In this document: positions 1 to 40,512 of the stretch, in pieces | Layout of the letters: every line of letters begins with the position of its first letter | Position numbering within the stretch: position 1 is the first letter of the stretch | NCBI GenBank assembly: GCA_963971225.1 | Contig: OZ020270.1 | Coordinates: forward strand, 21,773,689 to 21,837,688 | DNA: 64,000 bases | DNA from: Melieria omissa | Taxonomy: Eukaryota > Arthropoda > Insecta > Diptera > Ulidiidae | Direction: 5' to 3' | Translations under genes and position numbers: made by a program | The notes under the pieces: generated by a model | What the model saw: the letters and a program-made list of their open reading frames with translations, nothing else | What the model was told of the DNA's origin: nothing | The model's database searches: none

Positions 1-67
1 ACGACATTCATTCATTCATTAATCATTCATCATCATAACTGGCGAACTTTGCAGTTTATACTAGTAC

Positions 68-6931: not shown

Positions 6932-7650
6932 CATTATCGCGTCGGCCGTAATTTATTTATTAGCGGCTAAGAGCGATTGGCCCGTAAGATAGTACCGATG
7001 CTGTTGTGCTTTTGCTGTTATTATTATTTTAGCCCACTGAGGAGGCGTTATTGAGCTGCGCGAGCGTTCGTAGTCGAGCATTAGCAGCGTGTAGATGTGC
7101 GTGTAGCGGTCGTTTGAGAGAGTAGTGTGCGCGATGTGCGACATTGACAAAGAAACAACGCCACACAGAAATCCTTAAGGCGCAAGTGCGCAGCGACAAG
7201 TCAACGCACTGTTAACGGTAGTCTACCGCAATCGAGTTGCAAAGCCAGCGACGCGGCCAACAACTCAGCACTTGACGAAGGGGTTAAGTATCCAAACACG
7301 ACCAGTTAGTGCCGCTCAGTTGCAACAAAAGTCGGCTGGCAACAGCGTCAACATCACAAGCAGCAACAGCAGAACACACACCGCAACTGCAGCAGGTAAT
7401 TACAACATCGACGACGGAAATGCCTCACAGAAAAAGTGACGCGACGCACACTGGGGTAATTCATGCCGATTTTTGGCGATTAATTCACCCGACCTATTTA
7501 GACATGAAAAAAGTATTAGGTTTAGTTAATTATAGATAAAGAAGTAATAAATAAATGTATTTGAACATACTTTAGTGGATTTTTTTTTTTTATGACCAAA
7601 AATGCAAAATTGTTACAAAAGGGTATTGTACAGAATTCCTCGCTTATTTA
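6932..7650. other. Intergenic; CAG/CAA-rich patch, possible untranslated exon
   Basis: At 7040-7400 base composition is more balanced than in the surroundings. A CAG/CAA-rich stretch ends in a donor-like site (gcag|gtaatt, about 7394). This could be a 5' untranslated exon of an unseen gene, but nothing confirms it. The longest frames are short and unlike any protein I know. Confidence 0.25.
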
Positions 7651-8215
7651 TTAATTACTATCGGAATCATCATCGTATTCAGCCACGCTTTCACCTTCGC
7701 ATCCATCGTTATCATCATCATCATCATTGTTCATATCATTGCGTTCTTCTTCCGCAATTATCAACAAATCCAATGCTTCCCTTGGCATCCGCGTAACTGC
7801 TCTATGCGGCAATTTCGTTTCTGTCGATATAATGGGATCAGAATTTATAAGCAGTCTATTTAGAACGTCTTCGTTGGTTTTTTTCTCGGCTACTTTTTCG
7901 AGAAAAACATTTCCTGAAAGCCTTAAAATCTTTATCTCTCGCTTCCCGCGCTTCTTCAGATAATTCACCGATTCGCAACAAGGCGTGAGCTATGACCTCT
8001 GGTCCATTAATTAAATATTTATGAACAGTCGTAGGCATGTTATACCAAGGATAGTACTCAACGAAAGATTCGGCACAATTTAAGGCAAAGAGTTGGTCAT
8101 TATGTAATAAAGACTTTAACGAGTATACCAAATAACATTGGATTTCGTTCCTAAATGAAAACAACCACCTTTTTTAATAACTTGAAAATTTAGTCTTTTG
8201 CAGTTACCCTTTACC
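7651..8215 (-). pseudogene. Unidentified repeat X, copy 1: frameshifted coding remnant
   Basis: On the minus strand a frame begins at 8164 with MFSFRNEIQCYLVYSLKSLL and includes MPTTVHKYLINGPEVIAHAL and LSEEAREARDKDFKAFRK. Near 7900 it shifts into a second frame that continues with EDVLNRLLINSDPIIS and ends in an acidic tail (poly-Asp from a gat/atc run at about 7700-7740). I recall similar multi-copy uncharacterised arthropod proteins but cannot name the family or a function. Copy 2 at 16823-17340 is close in sequence and also broken. The repeat continues at 10319 beyond a Helitron insertion. Confidence 0.6.
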
Positions 8216-16822: not shown

Positions 16823-17530
16823 ATATCATCGCGTTCTTCTTCCGCAATTAACAAATCCGATGATTCCCTTGGCATGCGCGTAACTGCTTTATGAGGCAAT
16901 TCCATTTCTGTCGATATAATGGGATCAGAATTTATAAGCAGTCTATTTAGAACGTCTTCGTTAGTTTGTTGATCGGCTACTTTTTCGAGAAAAATATTTC
17001 CTCAAAGCCTTAAAATCTTTATTTCTCGCTTCCCGCGCTTCTTCAGATAATTCACCGATTCGCAAGAAGGCGTGAGCTATGACCTCTGGTCCATTAATTA
17101 AATATTTGTGAACAGTCGTAGGCATGTTATAGCAGGGATAGTACTCAACGAAAGATTTGGCACAATTTAAGGCAAAGAGTTGGTCATTATGTAATAAAGA
17201 CTTAAACGAGTATACCAAATAACATTGGATTTCGTTCCTAAATGAAAACAACCACTTTTTTTAATATCTTGAAAAAGTAGTCTTTTGCAGTTACCCTTTA
17301 CCTAGATAGTTTAATGCACATCACTGCGGTTATTTCAATCTATTACTCATAAGTAATGCAAACAATAACAATGCCCAATACTGCAACTTCTGATAAATAA
17401 GGTCAGCTGACCTAGTTTTGCACACACCGTACAACAAAGCCAAATGAAATAATCTAAGATATCGAAATTTTATTTGGTTCTGCATTATTTGAGATTATTT
17501 TGTATTGTGTTTCATAAATATCTTAAAAAC
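16823..17530 (-). pseudogene. Unidentified repeat X, copy 2, with coding remnant
   Basis: Homologous to 7731-8262 plus 10319-10508, here uninterrupted. A minus-strand frame at 17251-16961 repeats the MFSFRNEIQCYLVYSFKSLL...LSEEAREARNKDFKALRK segment of copy 1 and is broken at the equivalent region. It lacks the acidic tail because an LTR fragment replaces it. Its value is that it shows the empty sites for the Helitron, SINE and solo LTR in copy 1. Confidence 0.65.
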
Positions 17531-33763: not shown

Positions 33764-36700
33764 TTAGAATTCACCAATCTTTAAAACAGCTAATTTGGAC
33801 GCCGGTCGACGCAGCAGTCCCGTTGTTGTCTTTACGTCTGCAAACCGAACTTGTCCGTCCTTCGCTGGATACACGTTGACGACGATTCCCTTCTGCCATT
33901 GACTTCTAGGCAAGGATGGCTCACAAATGATGACTACGTCCCTCAGTTGGATAGGCGGTGTCTTGTCATGCCACTTTTGTCGATGGAGCAGTTGCGGTAA
34001 AAATTCGTTGGTCCACCGTTTCCAGAGGCGATCCTTCAAGTTCTGGGCTATACGCCACTGCTTCTTTAGGCAAATCTTCATGTCGACAGGCTGCGGAGTT
34101 TGCGTGGAATTGACGCATCCAAGCAAGAAGTGGTTGGGCGTCAACGGCTCATCCTCCATTGTGGTGAGTGGAATGTCTGTCAATGGACGAGCATTAACAA
34201 TGTTCTCCGCTTCAATCAGGACGCTTTGCAACGTTTCCATCCTCGGGGCTACTTCACGTAAAGTATGATGAAGCAGTCGCTTAACGATCCGGATCAAACG
34301 CTCCCAACACCCTCCTGAACTGGGGTTTGAAGGACAGTTAAACACCCAATCGATTCCGCGGCCAACCGCCTCGGTCTGAATACGATCCACATCTAGCAGC
34401 TTCTCGGCACCCTGTAGCTCCTTCTGGGCCCCAATAAAATTAGTCCCATTATCGCTTCTGATTCGCACTGGAGTACCACGTCTGTTGATAAAGTTTCGTA
34501 GGCATATCAGGAAAGCATCAGTTGATAAATCTGCTGCCACCTCCAAATGCACTGCCCGCACTGTCAAGCAGGTGAAAATCACGGCCCAACGTTTTACGTG
34601 GCAACGACCAACCGTGACAGTGAATGGGCCGAATAAGTCCACTCCCGAATATGCGAAAGGTCGCACATACGGCGTGACACGATCTACCGGCAGCTGACCC
34701 ATTTGTGGTGGAGCAGGCTTCGCTCGTTCAAGTTGACATTGCGGACATTTCTTCTCGACAGCTCTCAAAACGGCACGTGCACGAACAATCCAGAATCTTT
34801 GTCGTACTTCATTGATGGCTACAGCTTGGTTCTGATGATGGTTCTTCTCGTGGTAATGTTGCATTATCAGGCGCGACACCGCATGGTTTTGAGGTAGAAT
34901 TATTGGGCGCCTGGCACTGAATGGCAAGTACGTAGCTTCATCGATTCTTCCCCTCACACGCAGTAGTCCGTCGTTCTCTAAGTACGGCGATAGCAAGTAC
35001 ACAGAGCTTCCCCTTGGTACTGGCAGTCCAGCTGTTAGCACGTCAACTTCTTTGGTGTAACACTCCCTCTGAACCATGCGGCAGATAAGTTCTTCGGCCT
35101 CGTCGACTTCAACTACTGTGAGTGGACCTCTCAATTGCTGACGCGCCTCCGCATCTGTCCTCGAACGTCCGATGTTCTTGAAACGTACAACCCAAGCGAT
35201 GGTCCTCTTCAACTTCGTGTACGATGAGAACCTGTCATATTCAATCACGCGGCTCGTCTGCGAATTTATAAGAAATTGTAGTTGCACCTCTTCTTCTGTC
35301 ATACCTGGCGGCGGCCCGATAATGAACGTCGGCCAAGACGCTTCTTCTTGCTTCAAAAAGTCTGGACCCTTAAACCATCGGCTATCACCACTGAGCTTGG
35401 ACGGAGACTTCTGGCGTGTGGCTTCATCGGCAATGTTGATTTCTGTCGGCAGCCAACGCCACTGTGACGGCTGTGTCGTATCTAGTATCTCGGCTATTCT
35501 GTGACCTACAAACGGTTTGTACTTCCTCTTGGTTGACTGAATCCAGTGCCAGACCGTGTTCGAGTCGGTCCACAAAGTGACACTTGCGATGTTGACGTCA
35601 TGGTTACGGCATATCGTCTGGCTTAAACGCGTACCCAATACAGCAGCTTGTAACTCCAACCTCGGGATTGACATCAATTTCAGCGGCGCATTGCGGGTTT
35701 TGGCAGCTACAAATGCGACGTCCCACCCCCCGTTTGTGGCTATACGGAAGTACCCCACAGCGGCAAACAACACCTGGCTTGCGTCCACAAAGATGTGAAG
35801 TTGGATCTCGTTGGATGAAACAAAGGATGTCGAATATGGTCGCGGCACCTTAATTCGGCTGGCTTCTTCAAAGTTGTTCCACCACGTTCTCCATTGCTTG
35901 TCTAATTCTTCCGGGATGGGCTCATCCCACTCTACGTTGCTTCGCCAGACCTGCAGCATCAATATCTTAGCCGTTGCCATAATGTCGGCAAGCAGACCAA
36001 ATGGGTCGAAAACCGACATAACTATGCCCAGGAACTCTCTCTTCGTCGGTGCCCGCAGCGTATTGAGCACGTCTGGTGGTATGCGGTGGAACTGCGTATG
36101 AAACTCGAACGTGTCGCTACGCACGTTCCAGTGCATGCCCAGCACCTTTTCTGATGTCGCTTGTTTCTCCATATTGACCGTGTCGTACTTCGTGGCTCCC
36201 TTCATTGCCTGTTGGACCTGACTGGAATTCGATATGAAACTTCTCAACTCAAACCCGGCTTCTGCATGTATGGCGACGACTTGACGGCAAATCTCTACAG
36301 CGGCTGCTTCATCGTTAAAGCTGCAAACGAAGTCATCCACATAATGCTTCTCAACTACAGCGTCCACCGCGGCTGGGTAGCGTTCTTTAAATCGGCTGGC
36401 GTTGTGATTCTTGATGAACTCCGCACAACACGGCGAGCATGAAGCGCCAAACATCATCGACGTCATACAGCAATGTTCAACAGGCCGGCTGGGGTCACTG
36501 CGCCACAGGAACCGTTGGGCGTGCTGGTCCTCGGGTCTTATCCTCACCTGTGAGAACATCTCCCTTATGTCAGCCGCCACACCAACTGCGCCCTGACGAA
36601 ACCTGAACAGGATGTTTAATAACGGCTTGGCTCGTTCTGGTCCCTTTAGCAACCAGGAATTCAATGCAACGCCCTGCACTTTGGCGGCTGCGTCGAAAAC

Positions 36701-37918
36701 AATTCTCAGCTTGTCAGGCTTATACGGGCTCTGCACGGCGAAATGTGGCAGATACCACACTGGGCGATTGGTTTCTGCTATCTCGTTTGGCGACAAAACT
36801 CTTGCGTACCCCTTGGCGAAGTACTTCGACATCTCTTCCTGATACCTTCGTGCGAACTCAGCATCACTCTTCATTTTCCTCTCAATTCCATGCAAACGTT
36901 TGACGGCAGCCTCATAACTTTCTGGCAGCTTCGGCGTGTCCGAACTCCACAACAGCCCTGTTTCAAAATATTTGTCACATATCTTGGTCGTACTGCTCAT
37001 AATACTTCGTGCCCGTTTGTCGTCGTCACTCTCAGGTAGCGATCGCGCTGTTTCCGCTCCAAACTGGTCGGTGGCAACGTACTCGGCGACTATCCGATGT
37101 AATTCCTCTAACGGACGGGCCTCACGAATGTGTAGCATCACTGGCGGCGACGGACTTGAGGATTTCACCGGACCGTAAGCCAACCATCCCAGTTTTGTCT
37201 GGATGGCTAGTGGCCGGTCTTGCCGAGCCTGTACGGTGACACTGGCGGCTGTCAGATGGGCATTGTCCAAACCGAGTAAAAGAACCGGTCGGGCATCGAT
37301 GTATTCCTCAATCGGCAACGACTCCAAATAACCCAAATTGGACTTCTTGAATGACTGTGTTGGCAAATTTAATTTCTTGACTGTATGTACGTTCCTGACT
37401 GCAAACTTCTCTCCGCTGGTGCGATTCGCTACTTCCAACGTGACTCGGCGTGACTGTTCCGTCTTTATTTCCTCGTCGTACCACTGAAGAGTCAACGGCT
37501 GAAGTTGCCCTCTCAGCCCCAGTTTGTCCGCCACGCCTTCTTCCACCATTGATACAGCTGACCCATCATCGAGCATCGCAAAGGCGTCCATCTGCCCATT
37601 CGGTCCACACAACTGCACCGGAATCACTTTAAATAGTTGACTGTACTTCAAACTAGGCGTGGAACAATTCAACACCGGCTGTGATGGTTGCATGATCTGG
37701 CAGGCTGGGCCCTGGTCGTTAGCCCCTTCATGCAGGCTGGCGCACAGTGTCGTGAGTGTAGCCAAAAATACAAAAAGTCGATGTTGCAAATATGATATTT
37801 TTTTTACATACATGGTGAGATAATACTCCCAATAAGACAAATCTAAAATATTTCTTAAAACAAATAATAAATGTAAGCAGGAGCCATCCACAAAGTTGAG
37901 CCTTTTCTTGGAACACAT
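33764..37918 (-). CDS. BEL/Pao pol polyprotein (protease, RT, RNase H, integrase)
   Basis: An open frame of 1384 residues. The first 40-odd residues come from the inserted Transib-like DNA, and true pol starts near residue 59 (SLHEGANDQG). In order: the A17-type aspartic protease core (MLDDGSAVSMV, about residues 115-125), RT with the YVDDFV box (about residue 510-515), RNase H-like region (IFVDASQ ... TDSNTVWHW), zinc-binding integrase N-terminus (ending CPQC), and the integrase core with GVDLFGPF, RSDNGTNF and a Glu in the following CWERL block. The BEL-specific C-terminal domain ends at VLKIGEF. All catalytic motifs visible are present. No internal stop. Confidence 0.93.
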   Translation of the reverse strand: MCSKKRLNFVDGSCLHLLFVLRNILDLSYWEYYLTMYVKKISYLQHRLFVFLATLTTLCASLHEGANDQGPACQIMQPSQPVLNCSTPSLKYSQLFKVIPVQLCGPNGQMDAFAMLDDGSAVSMVEEGVADKLGLRGQLQPLTLQWYDEEIKTEQSRRVTLEVANRTSGEKFAVRNVHTVKKLNLPTQSFKKSNLGYLESLPIEEYIDARPVLLLGLDNAHLTAASVTVQARQDRPLAIQTKLGWLAYGPVKSSSPSPPVMLHIREARPLEELHRIVAEYVATDQFGAETARSLPESDDDKRARSIMSSTTKICDKYFETGLLWSSDTPKLPESYEAAVKRLHGIERKMKSDAEFARRYQEEMSKYFAKGYARVLSPNEIAETNRPVWYLPHFAVQSPYKPDKLRIVFDAAAKVQGVALNSWLLKGPERAKPLLNILFRFRQGAVGVAADIREMFSQVRIRPEDQHAQRFLWRSDPSRPVEHCCMTSMMFGASCSPCCAEFIKNHNASRFKERYPAAVDAVVEKHYVDDFVCSFNDEAAAVEICRQVVAIHAEAGFELRSFISNSSQVQQAMKGATKYDTVNMEKQATSEKVLGMHWNVRSDTFEFHTQFHRIPPDVLNTLRAPTKREFLGIVMSVFDPFGLLADIMATAKILMLQVWRSNVEWDEPIPEELDKQWRTWWNNFEEASRIKVPRPYSTSFVSSNEIQLHIFVDASQVLFAAVGYFRIATNGGWDVAFVAAKTRNAPLKLMSIPRLELQAAVLGTRLSQTICRNHDVNIASVTLWTDSNTVWHWIQSTKRKYKPFVGHRIAEILDTTQPSQWRWLPTEINIADEATRQKSPSKLSGDSRWFKGPDFLKQEEASWPTFIIGPPPGMTEEEVQLQFLINSQTSRVIEYDRFSSYTKLKRTIAWVVRFKNIGRSRTDAEARQQLRGPLTVVEVDEAEELICRMVQRECYTKEVDVLTAGLPVPRGSSVYLLSPYLENDGLLRVRGRIDEATYLPFSARRPIILPQNHAVSRLIMQHYHEKNHHQNQAVAINEVRQRFWIVRARAVLRAVEKKCPQCQLERAKPAPPQMGQLPVDRVTPYVRPFAYSGVDLFGPFTVTVGRCHVKRWAVIFTCLTVRAVHLEVAADLSTDAFLICLRNFINRRGTPVRIRSDNGTNFIGAQKELQGAEKLLDVDRIQTEAVGRGIDWVFNCPSNPSSGGCWERLIRIVKRLLHHTLREVAPRMETLQSVLIEAENIVNARPLTDIPLTTMEDEPLTPNHFLLGCVNSTQTPQPVDMKICLKKQWRIAQNLKDRLWKRWTNEFLPQLLHRQKWHDKTPPIQLRDVVIICEPSLPRSQWQKGIVVNVYPAKDGQVRFADVKTTTGLLRRPASKLAVLKIGEF

Positions 37919-38934
37919 TTTTGCCAGAGCAACTCACTATTTTTATGCTAAATGTAAGTAGCATTTTTAGCTTACATGTACTACGTATGGATACAAATTA
38001 CATACCTAAGAAAAATATAGAGTTTGGGCAGCAGCAGGTGCTACTTTTTTGTTTTGTTTTGATCAGCATATGCGAAGTTACGTTGCTTTAAAGAAACCCG
38101 GCCTGGCTTACGAAATGTGAGAAAAATTGCTAACTTTGGGAGACGATAAAAAGAAAACGTCTCAATGCATCTCTGCAGTGATTAGTGCAAAACAAAGACA
38201 CAAGTACGACCTTTCAAATAAAAAGAAAATTAGCTGCGTCGACCTGCGTTCCCACCTAAAACTTTACTTCTTGTAGTGGCACCTACAGTCAAAAATTGTG
38301 ATTTTTCGAAGTATGGCTTGGGACGCACAATGAAAACTGCGGAAAAACAGCTGTTACAATGGTGAGCTATATAAAAGACAAGGTGGGAACATTGTTCGTA
38401 TCTTCAAAGTAGGCAGAATGTCACGCCCACTTTAAAAATTTAAACATTTATACCAAAATATGGTAACACAAGCTGAAAAAATTAATACACGAATTCATGA
38501 AGGAAAAGTTTTGGCCACTAAATAAATATTCTCCAGCTGCCACGCCCACTTTTAAGGTTTAAGAAAGCTTAAAAATTAAAATCACATCGTAGAACGGTAT
38601 TACAAACAGCCTTTTAAAAATACAGTTGTAGTTGTAGTAAAATGCGAATATTTTTGAAAGTGGGCATGGCAGACCGCCCATTTTTAGTTTGAGCTTTTAG
38701 GTCAGTAATTCAAGCATAAATGCAAAATTTCATAATTCTATCACTAATATTAAGCAAGTTATTTCAATATTACAGTTCCTGTCGTAAGGGGGGTGGGCGT
38801 GGCAGTGGTCCAATTTAAATGATTTTTTGGAAATTTCTTAATTTTGATCCCGAAAACGATCTCACCAAGTTTCATCGAGGTAGGACAACGCTAAGTATTT
38901 TTGGCCACGGCTTATATGGGATCGCGACACTGTG
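37744..38934. mobile_element. Transib-like non-autonomous element with 12/23 RSS-like ends
   Basis: The ends are the 10-bp inverted repeat CACAGTGTCG, flanked by the 5-bp duplication tggcg (37739-37743, 38935-38939). The BEL reading frame is continuous across the target once the insert and one duplicate are ignored, so both borders are certain. A 5-bp, GC-rich target duplication and CAC-starting termini are the Transib signature. Left end: heptamer CACAGTG (37744-37750), 12-nt spacer, CCAAAAATA (37763-37771). Right end read inward on the minus strand: CACAGTG (38934-38928), 23-nt spacer, CCAAAAATA (38904-38896). The 1.2-kb interior has no transposase, only AT-rich sequence with several cacgcccactt-type motifs. 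Confidence 0.85.
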
Positions 38935-39979
38935 TGGCGTGGTGAAAGCGACGGCACTCGTTAACTCCACACGGCTTCTTTGAACGGCAGTTCGATACGT
39001 TATGTCCTTTGCGTAGGCAAGCAAAGCATAACTTCTCTTTCTTCACCACGTTCCAGCGGTCTTGCACACCCAGTGATTGATGGAATTTTTGGCAATTGGC
39101 GATGACGTGAGCGGCGTGGCAACAATAGCACTGAATCGCCTTCTCGGTGGCGCCCTCATTGACATGCATTACTCGCCGTGGCGTCGTTGCAGCGTTCTTT
39201 GGAAGCGATGTTGATACTGTAGACATTGTAGCCACTACTCGTCCTAACTCGGTTAACCATTTGGCAAAATCTCCAACTGTAGCATACGGCTTAATTATGC
39301 TTGCACAACGGGCCCACTCAAACTGCTTGCTTGGCGGCAATTTGCTGACCAGTTGCTCCAGCAACAATGGATTTGCTAGATGCTGCTCACTCTTGGCAGA
39401 TGTTAGGAAGGCCACCACATTGCGAACGTTTGTCGAGAAAGCGACGACTGACTCCAGCTTGCTCTCAGGAATAGCTGGAAAGTTCTGCAGCTTACTCAAT
39501 TGACAACGAATTAACAGATCCGACCTACCGAATCGGAATTCCAATTCCGCCATTGCTTGTGAGACGCCCTCTGGGTAAATCAGCATCGACGCTACAGCTT
39601 CCTTGGCTTCACCTACTAAACACTTATGCAACCGCATGAGGTTCTGTCTGTCGTTGTACTTAAACACTTCAGTGCTGTCTTTAAAGTTGGCACAGAACAG
39701 CGGCCAGTCCTCTGCCTTGCCCGAAAATGTAGGTAGATCGTACAGTTTTACTGTACCCGTCTCGACCAGCACGGCGTCGCTGTGGTTGTCTGCTGCGGGT
39801 GTCGACACTTCTCGAGGCTGCATTAGCAGCGCGTCGGCTTGGATTTGTTGGCGCAGGTTGCTGATATCCCTCTGCTGCTCCTCGCTGTTATGTCGAACCT
39901 CTTCCATCGTGGACTTTAGTGACCTCATCACCTCTAGCAATGCCGCCAACGAATCATGACTCCCACTTTCCATTATCAA
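38912..39979 (-). CDS. BEL/Pao gag
   Basis: A frame of 355 residues starting MIMESGSHDSLAALLEVMRS, with an N-terminal coiled-coil-like stretch (about residues 10-50). The conserved capsid region follows (LYDLPTFSGKAEDWPLFCAN, about residues 78-97), then zinc knuckles CYCCHAAHVIANC and CFACLRKGHNVSNC (about residues 284-330). The last residues and stop come from the inserted Transib-like DNA. In the uninterrupted element gag would read straight into pol. Confidence 0.92.
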   Translation of the reverse strand: MIMESGSHDSLAALLEVMRSLKSTMEEVRHNSEEQQRDISNLRQQIQADALLMQPREVSTPAADNHSDAVLVETGTVKLYDLPTFSGKAEDWPLFCANFKDSTEVFKYNDRQNLMRLHKCLVGEAKEAVASMLIYPEGVSQAMAELEFRFGRSDLLIRCQLSKLQNFPAIPESKLESVVAFSTNVRNVVAFLTSAKSEQHLANPLLLEQLVSKLPPSKQFEWARCASIIKPYATVGDFAKWLTELGRVVATMSTVSTSLPKNAATTPRRVMHVNEGATEKAIQCYCCHAAHVIANCQKFHQSLGVQDRWNVVKKEKLCFACLRKGHNVSNCRSKKPCGVNECRRFHHATQCRDPI

Positions 39980-40512
39980 AACTGTACTTTACTCTACGAA
40001 TGTTCTTCTATAACTTGTTCAAACTTGATCGGCGTCCCTTCTCAACTGTCCAATCCGCACTCGCGACTATTACCGGCAAACACTGCGAGTAACGGCACTT
40101 GGAATCATCCCTCTACAACGGCTTCGAAATCAAAACGGCGACAAACTATCGCGAATGTGTAGATGACGCACAGATGCCAACAGCGAACATTAACTTGTTC
40201 TGACTTGATCGGCGTCTTTTTCACTGTCTCTTTCGCACTTACGGCGACTACTGGCAAACACTGCGACTAACGGTACTGGCAATTTCTCCTTTACAACGGC
40301 TTCGAAATCTAACGGCAACGTAACTGGCAAATACACGGCGTCTCTTTTTACGGCGGCTTCGAAATCTAACGGCAACGTAACTGGCAAATACACGGCGAGT
40401 CTTTTTCTTTTTACGGCGGCTTCGAAAACGAACGGCAACGTAACTGGCAAATACGGCGGCTTCGAAAACGTTCGCGAAGGCAAGGGCGACCAACGGATGC
40501 CAATAAAACGAA
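39980..40512 (-). other. BEL 5' untranslated leader with tandem repeats
   Basis: Lies between the right LTR and the gag start. At about 40290-40480, units containing ggcttcgaaa and aacggcaacgtaactggcaa repeat three to four times with a period of about 57-63 bp, and a diverged unit lies near 40070-40130. The base pairs next to the LTR should hold the primer binding site, but I could not match a tRNA with confidence. Confidence 0.75.

Follow-up and report, generated by a model that had tools for sequence, protein, structure and literature searches.

A probable non-autonomous Transib element with 12/23-spaced ends in the genome of the fly Melieria omissa

Analysis of the window, a 64 000-nt stretch of Melieria omissa contig OZ020270.1, revealed a 1192-bp element (37743–38934, plus strand) that is very probably an internally deleted, non-autonomous Transib, moved through bipartite 12/23 ends by a RAG1-like transposase. 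The element was delimited by its borders, its target site duplication and its copies elsewhere in the genome. It belongs to a lineage that keeps the 12/23 layout while symmetric ends characterise the three other Transib families read in this genome; it is an element of an ordinary kind, seen with unusual clarity. The Transib-type identity put forward in the first-pass annotation is upheld by 5-bp CGNCG-like duplications, by CACAGTG ends and by a relative that combines the same 23-type end with a RAG1-like transposase.

The left, 12-type end comprises the heptamer CACAGTG (37743–37749, plus strand), a 12-nt spacer (37750–37761) that departs from the majority of copies at two letters, and the nonamer-like block CCAAAAATA (37762–37770). 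The right, 23-type end lies on the minus strand and comprises the heptamer CACAGTG (38928–38934), a 23-nt spacer (38905–38927) with CATATA at spacer positions 10–15 (38913–38918) and again the block CCAAAAATA (38896–38904). Read inwards, the ends are therefore CACAGTG-N12-CCAAAAATA on the left and CACAGTG-N23-CCAAAAATA on the right, an asymmetric 12/23 layout. The first-pass annotation had placed the right end exactly here, and the heptamer and block that it saw at both ends can be read directly in the window copy. At the left end, its 12-nt gap and block stand, but its positions are one base off: the heptamer starts at 37743 rather than 37744, and the spacer, of the correct length, occupies 37750–37761 rather than 37751–37762. 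The 5-bp duplication tggcg that it described was found as identical TGGCG copies at 37738–37742 and 38935–38939.

An uninterrupted BEL frame had also been claimed around the element, and minus-strand open frames are indeed present on both sides. The left frame (35999–37741) matched an RVT_1 domain (E value 2.2e-7) and the right frame (38936–39988), which we take to be of BEL/Pao type, matched DUF1759 (E value 4.8e-11), the two frames having been searched separately for domains, unjoined. The element plus one duplication amounts to 1197 (3 × 399) bases, and by coordinate arithmetic the two host frames are in phase.

Searching the fly's own genome (490 Mb, 164 contigs) with the element returned at least 43 matches in about 40 separate places, including the window copy, among the best 40 of 343 candidates that were scored. 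Thirty loci were read, namely the window copy and 29 others, and among these the copy nearest to the window element differs from it at 5 of 1192 sites, which suggests, from sequence comparison, that the element moved recently. Both ends of the window copy, and of most copies read, carry CACAGTG, and identical 5-bp, GC-rich duplications flank 25 of the 30 copies, 20 of them exactly CGNCG and five off by one or two places. The left spacer measures 12 nt in 27 of the 29 other copies (L007 is without that end and the heptamer of L014 is cut), and the right spacer measures 23 nt in 27/29 (22 nt in L012; L026 is truncated). Two copies with matched duplications, L012 and L083, have 12/22 spacing, indicating either that the 23-nt spacing is not absolute or that both copies changed after insertion.

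Changes were scored per site against the majority base of the 29 other copies, with positions 61–1132 of the element taken as the interior. The nonamers showed 2 changes in 513 sites, the heptamers 4/391, the spacers 20/999 and the interior 742/30 884; relative to the interior, this gave P=0.0007 for the nonamers, P=0.09 for the heptamers and P=0.46 for the spacers with sites treated as independent, values that serve only as a guide since sites and copies share ancestry. The spacers thus change at about the rate of the interior while the nonamer rate is low, indicating that the spacer letters drift and the block is held. The expectation of the first-pass annotation, that the two lengths and the block would be kept while the spacers varied, was borne out in most of these copies. 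Low change is not limited to the nonamer, as the right inner flank (element positions 1133–1153) is also slow (7 changes in 609 sites). Nor is the 23-nt spacer wholly free: CATATA occupies places 10–15 in 43 of the 53 23-type ends listed and is common to diverged subfamilies in which the other spacer letters vary. With that exception, the ends show the conserved nonamer and free spacer of a recombination signal sequence (RSS).

Genome-wide, the pattern CACAGTG-N(5–35)-CCAAAAATA returned 461 matches in 490 Mb, while a reversed control pattern returned 15. CACAGTG-N12-CCAAAAATA accounted for 144 matches (control, 0) and CACAGTG-N13–22-CCAAAAATA for 29 (control, 5); the end pattern exceeds chance. 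Twelve of the 29 intermediate matches (hand count), for instance that at L086, have a 14-nt spacer, and these places possibly represent a further family with another spacing. In the first 100 of the 461 matches listed, all on contig C1, the spacer was 12 nt in 30, 23 nt in 53 and of other lengths in 17; by eye, two of the 53 ends with 23-nt spacers look unrelated to the family. When the ends of the subfamily were searched with up to three mismatches, the 27-letter 12-type end was found in 311 places and the 39-letter 23-type end in 224, with no control match for either.

Five 23-type ends without a listed partner (L076–L080) were examined among the CACAGTG-N(5–35)-CCAAAAATA matches. L076 does have a 12-type end, with the block CCAAAAATG; L078 proved to be a transposase-bearing copy, described below; and at L077, L079 and L080 no exact heptamer was found on the opposite side within the retrieved piece. 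Six loci with diverged ends were also examined. L081 and L082, which belong to other subfamilies, are 12/23 with different spacers and unequal flanking 5-mers; L083 has equal flanks; L084 has a 12-type end opposite a 23-spaced one with an altered block, between unequal 5-mers; L085 is a 23-type end alone; and L086 is a 14-spaced end alone, its opposite end not having been found.

The 12- and 23-nt spacers fall into at least three groups, starting TCGCGA, GGGCGT and TAACGA, and the two spacers of one group begin alike. If 11 bp of the longer spacer are omitted, 10, 11 and 9 of 12 places match within three subfamilies, the third of which is a single element, and 8 of 12 match in the window copy; between subfamilies, the same comparison gives 4 to 9 of 12. 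We read the two ends as what may be a single bipartite site that occurs in two lengths differing by a helical turn, each subfamily keeping its two versions alike. Internal deletion would have removed the transposase gene of an autonomous parent and left its cis-acting ends in place. A RAG1-like Transib transposase, presumably supplied in trans, would contact both the CACAGTG heptamer and the A-rich nonamer-like block of each end; cleavage at the heptamer border and insertion into CGNCG targets would then generate the 5-bp duplications. Both ends would present the same site with or without 11 bp in the spacer, and since 11 bp is about one helical turn, both contact points would face the same side of the helix.

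A candidate source of such a transposase family is L078 (contig C1), a degraded copy that carries the 23-type end of the window family at its end and encodes a RAG1-like transposase. L078 and L087 match the element at element positions 387–648 (77% identity) and 796–1192 (78% identity), and the transposase lies between these two stretches. Three pieces of the L078 transposase matched HzTransib (6pqn) in a PDB sequence search (E values 2e-33, 9.5e-16 and 0.0017), while the two pieces tried against Pfam gave no RAG1 match. The counterparts in the L078 protein of D126, D225 and E436, which the consulted part of PMC6941560 names as catalytic, are D, D and E, on a numbering offset of 17 that we inferred. 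A RAG1-core-like DDE transposase is thus associated with the window 23-type end through L078, in a broken frame, and not through the window copy itself. The first-pass annotation had called for an autonomous copy with such a transposase, and L078 answers this in part, supplying the transposase and the 23-type end; its frame is broken, so that an active transposase source is not demonstrated, and no 12-type end was seen, the 5′ part being replaced by unrelated sequence in the portion read, which we read as a probable insertion. A second transposase copy (C4:43658683–43659231, minus strand) is 91% identical to a 204-aa piece of the L078 protein, for which a protein database returned 11 relatives, one of them named, from Bactrocera tryoni. 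The region C1:80014172–80019830 (5.66 kb, 23..12) was considered as a parent and rejected, as it gave no transposase match and its flanks are non-identical.

Several other Transib families are present. A search with Pfam RAG1 yielded 68 scored places, the best of 166 candidates in this genome, distributed over several families. Family 1 (one copy read at both ends, C4, approximately 30.634–30.638 Mb) has CACAGTG heptamers and CGGCG on both sides, and family 2 (one copy) has the heptamer CACTATG; both are 23/23, a spacing that depends on our having set the start of the A-rich block at CAAAA. Family 4 (L066) is 22/22 with GAATG duplications. Two open frames first taken as the family 2 protein are probably not transposase. 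The 204-aa piece of the L078 transposase has at least 169 matches in the genome, found by scoring 150 of 1421 candidates, and many of these matches have long open frames; Transib transposases are abundant here, whereas autonomous Transibs usually number one or a few copies according to the relevant passage of PMC4411706.

Pairs were counted between adjacent ends only, from 311 listed ends after merging, with the window 12-type end added by hand. Among these listed ends, 63 of the 64 facing nearest neighbours within 3.5 kb are 12/23 and one is 12/22 (raw count), and no 12/12 or 23/23 facing pair was found within that distance. Extending the distance to 10 kb gave 65 12/23 pairs, one 12/22 and two 12/12; on contig C1, the 33 facing neighbours within 10 kb comprise 31 12/23, one 12/22 and one 12/12. 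Nine of the pairs, at C4:28.65–28.71 Mb, lie in one tandem array and do not count as independent. That array (C4:28652964–28711968), which contains the element, consists of nine 12/23 pairs and a tenth 23-type end in the same orientation, mostly at steps of 5–6 kb. Both 12/12 pairs were set aside: C1:88534410–88541435 represents two abutting, interrupted copies with intervening DNA that looks retrotransposon-like by eye, and C3:47084940/47092345 (7406 bp) spans separate elements, beginning with L013, which has its own 23-type end.

These counts leave room for a reading in which the asymmetry was frozen without any pairing rule, the 23-nt spacing being the older Transib layout and one end of the ancestor having lost 11 bp, a loss tolerated through helical phase and inherited by all copies. 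This account could equally well be right or wrong. The three symmetric families of this genome (two 23/23, one 22/22) make 23 a plausible ancestral length, about one 11-bp block distinguishes the two ends within a subfamily, derivatives made by internal deletion would retain one end of each kind regardless, and, according to the consulted part of PMC8355894, jawed vertebrates recognise 12/23 asymmetry only with RAG2, which is absent from Transib. Against it, the 12 and 23 lengths persist with other spacers (L081 and L082) and in facing pairs that span 324 to 3184 bp, like-with-like pairs are missing within 3.5 kb among the listed ends, and in ProtoRAG asymmetric pairs outperform symmetric ones (PMC8289069, in the portion consulted), albeit in the presence of a RAG2-like protein. 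The 12/23-like pairing rule for movement raised in the first-pass annotation is possible. The listed pairs do no more than agree with it, since descent of all copies from a single asymmetric ancestor would yield identical pairs; sequence cannot tell whether 12/23 pairing is required.

It is also conceivable, but improbable, that the copies were mobilised by one of the abundant symmetric 23/23 Transib families of the same genome rather than by a 12/23 clade of their own. Family 1 shares the CACAGTG heptamer and has stop-free open frames of 657–689 aa in seven of 30 extracted loci; nevertheless, the element's DNA matches L078, whose transposase is distant (30% identity to family 1 and 36% to family 4), and families 1 and 2 have blocks and spacers unlike those of the element. 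That the element is non-Transib, with CAC ends that resemble RSSs by chance, is hardly credible and largely contradicted, since despite the failure of family 1 and 4 proteins to match within 37743–38934 (E value up to 10), it has a relative with an HzTransib-like protein, CGNCG-like 5-bp duplications and 461 rather than 15 matches to its end pattern.

RAG1, the antibody-shuffling enzyme, is thought to descend from the Transib kind, and the 12/23 rule, the origin of which is open, ensures the ordered assembly of antigen-receptor genes. In vertebrates, the bend in the 23-nt spacer is made by an HMG-box protein. It is of interest, though we consider it doubtful, that a RAG2-less Transib transposase might synapse its ends only as 12/23 while symmetric sister families share its nucleus, with CATATA as a built-in bend; if true, the V(D)J pairing rule would extend to a transposon lineage. 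With its hundreds of 12/23 ends, its several subfamilies and the symmetric families beside them, this genome offers natural substrates for testing lopsided pairing without RAG2.

Returning to the reading of the element as an internally deleted Transib with 12/23 ends, likeness to RSSs is no novelty. The legend to Figure 2 of PMC8355894, with reference to Kapitonov and Jurka 2005, gives Drosophila melanogaster Transib5 and Anopheles gambiae Transib2, N1, N2 and N3 as 12/23-asymmetric, in agreement with the first-pass annotation, which mentioned RSS-like pairs for a few insect Transib families, and the present element is a well-sampled addition to this known kind. Compared by description only, it shares with Transib5_DM and the Anopheles families ends in which about 12 and about 23 nt separate the heptamer from the nonamer-like block; what differs is that several subfamilies and 64 facing end pairs come here from one genome. 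The symmetric Transibs (HzTransib and families 1, 2 and 4) likewise have CAC ends, a RAG1-like transposase and, in the copies read here, 5-bp duplications, whereas spacing in the families of this genome is equal at both ends and HzTransib shows little or no nonamer likeness, according to excerpts of PMC8289069. With the RSSs of V(D)J recombination, the element shares an identical CACAGTG, spacers of 12 and 23 nt and an A-run in register with the consensus nonamer ACAAAAACC (6 of 9 letters by hand count; consensus from the same excerpts), but its signals are transposon ends with CGNCG-like duplications and have no known recombination role. ProtoRAG of amphioxus also has asymmetric bipartite ends and 5-bp duplications but differs in its 27/31 spacers and RAG2-like partner (PMC8289069 and PMC7204232, both in part).

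The sources consulted, each in part, diverge on the weight of asymmetry. PMC8355894 argues that the source of the 12/23 rule may be a Transib with 12/23 ends, but the RAG2 requirement that it describes for recognition of 12/23 asymmetry by vertebrate RAG speaks against such a rule in a RAG2-less transposon. In the relevant passages, PMC9435367 describes subgroup I Transibs as all asymmetric-ended and subgroup II as including both kinds, PMC8289069 reports symmetric ends in most Transib families and a preference of ProtoRAG for asymmetric ones, and PMC7204232 predicts that asymmetry matters relatively little to invertebrate RAG-like enzymes; the portion of PMC11844651 consulted holds nothing bearing on spacing. 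Whether a Transib needs a lopsided pair is not settled in these portions of the literature.

Finally, the window contains remnants of another Transib transposase family on the minus strand (7447–8095 and 16846–17182), with 51–55% identity to family 4 over the best stretches. The transposase fragments at 7759–8095 and 16846–17182 were considered as part of the element's own family and rejected, as they belong to this other family. The first remnant has a CACACTG end at 7447, adjoining CGACG.
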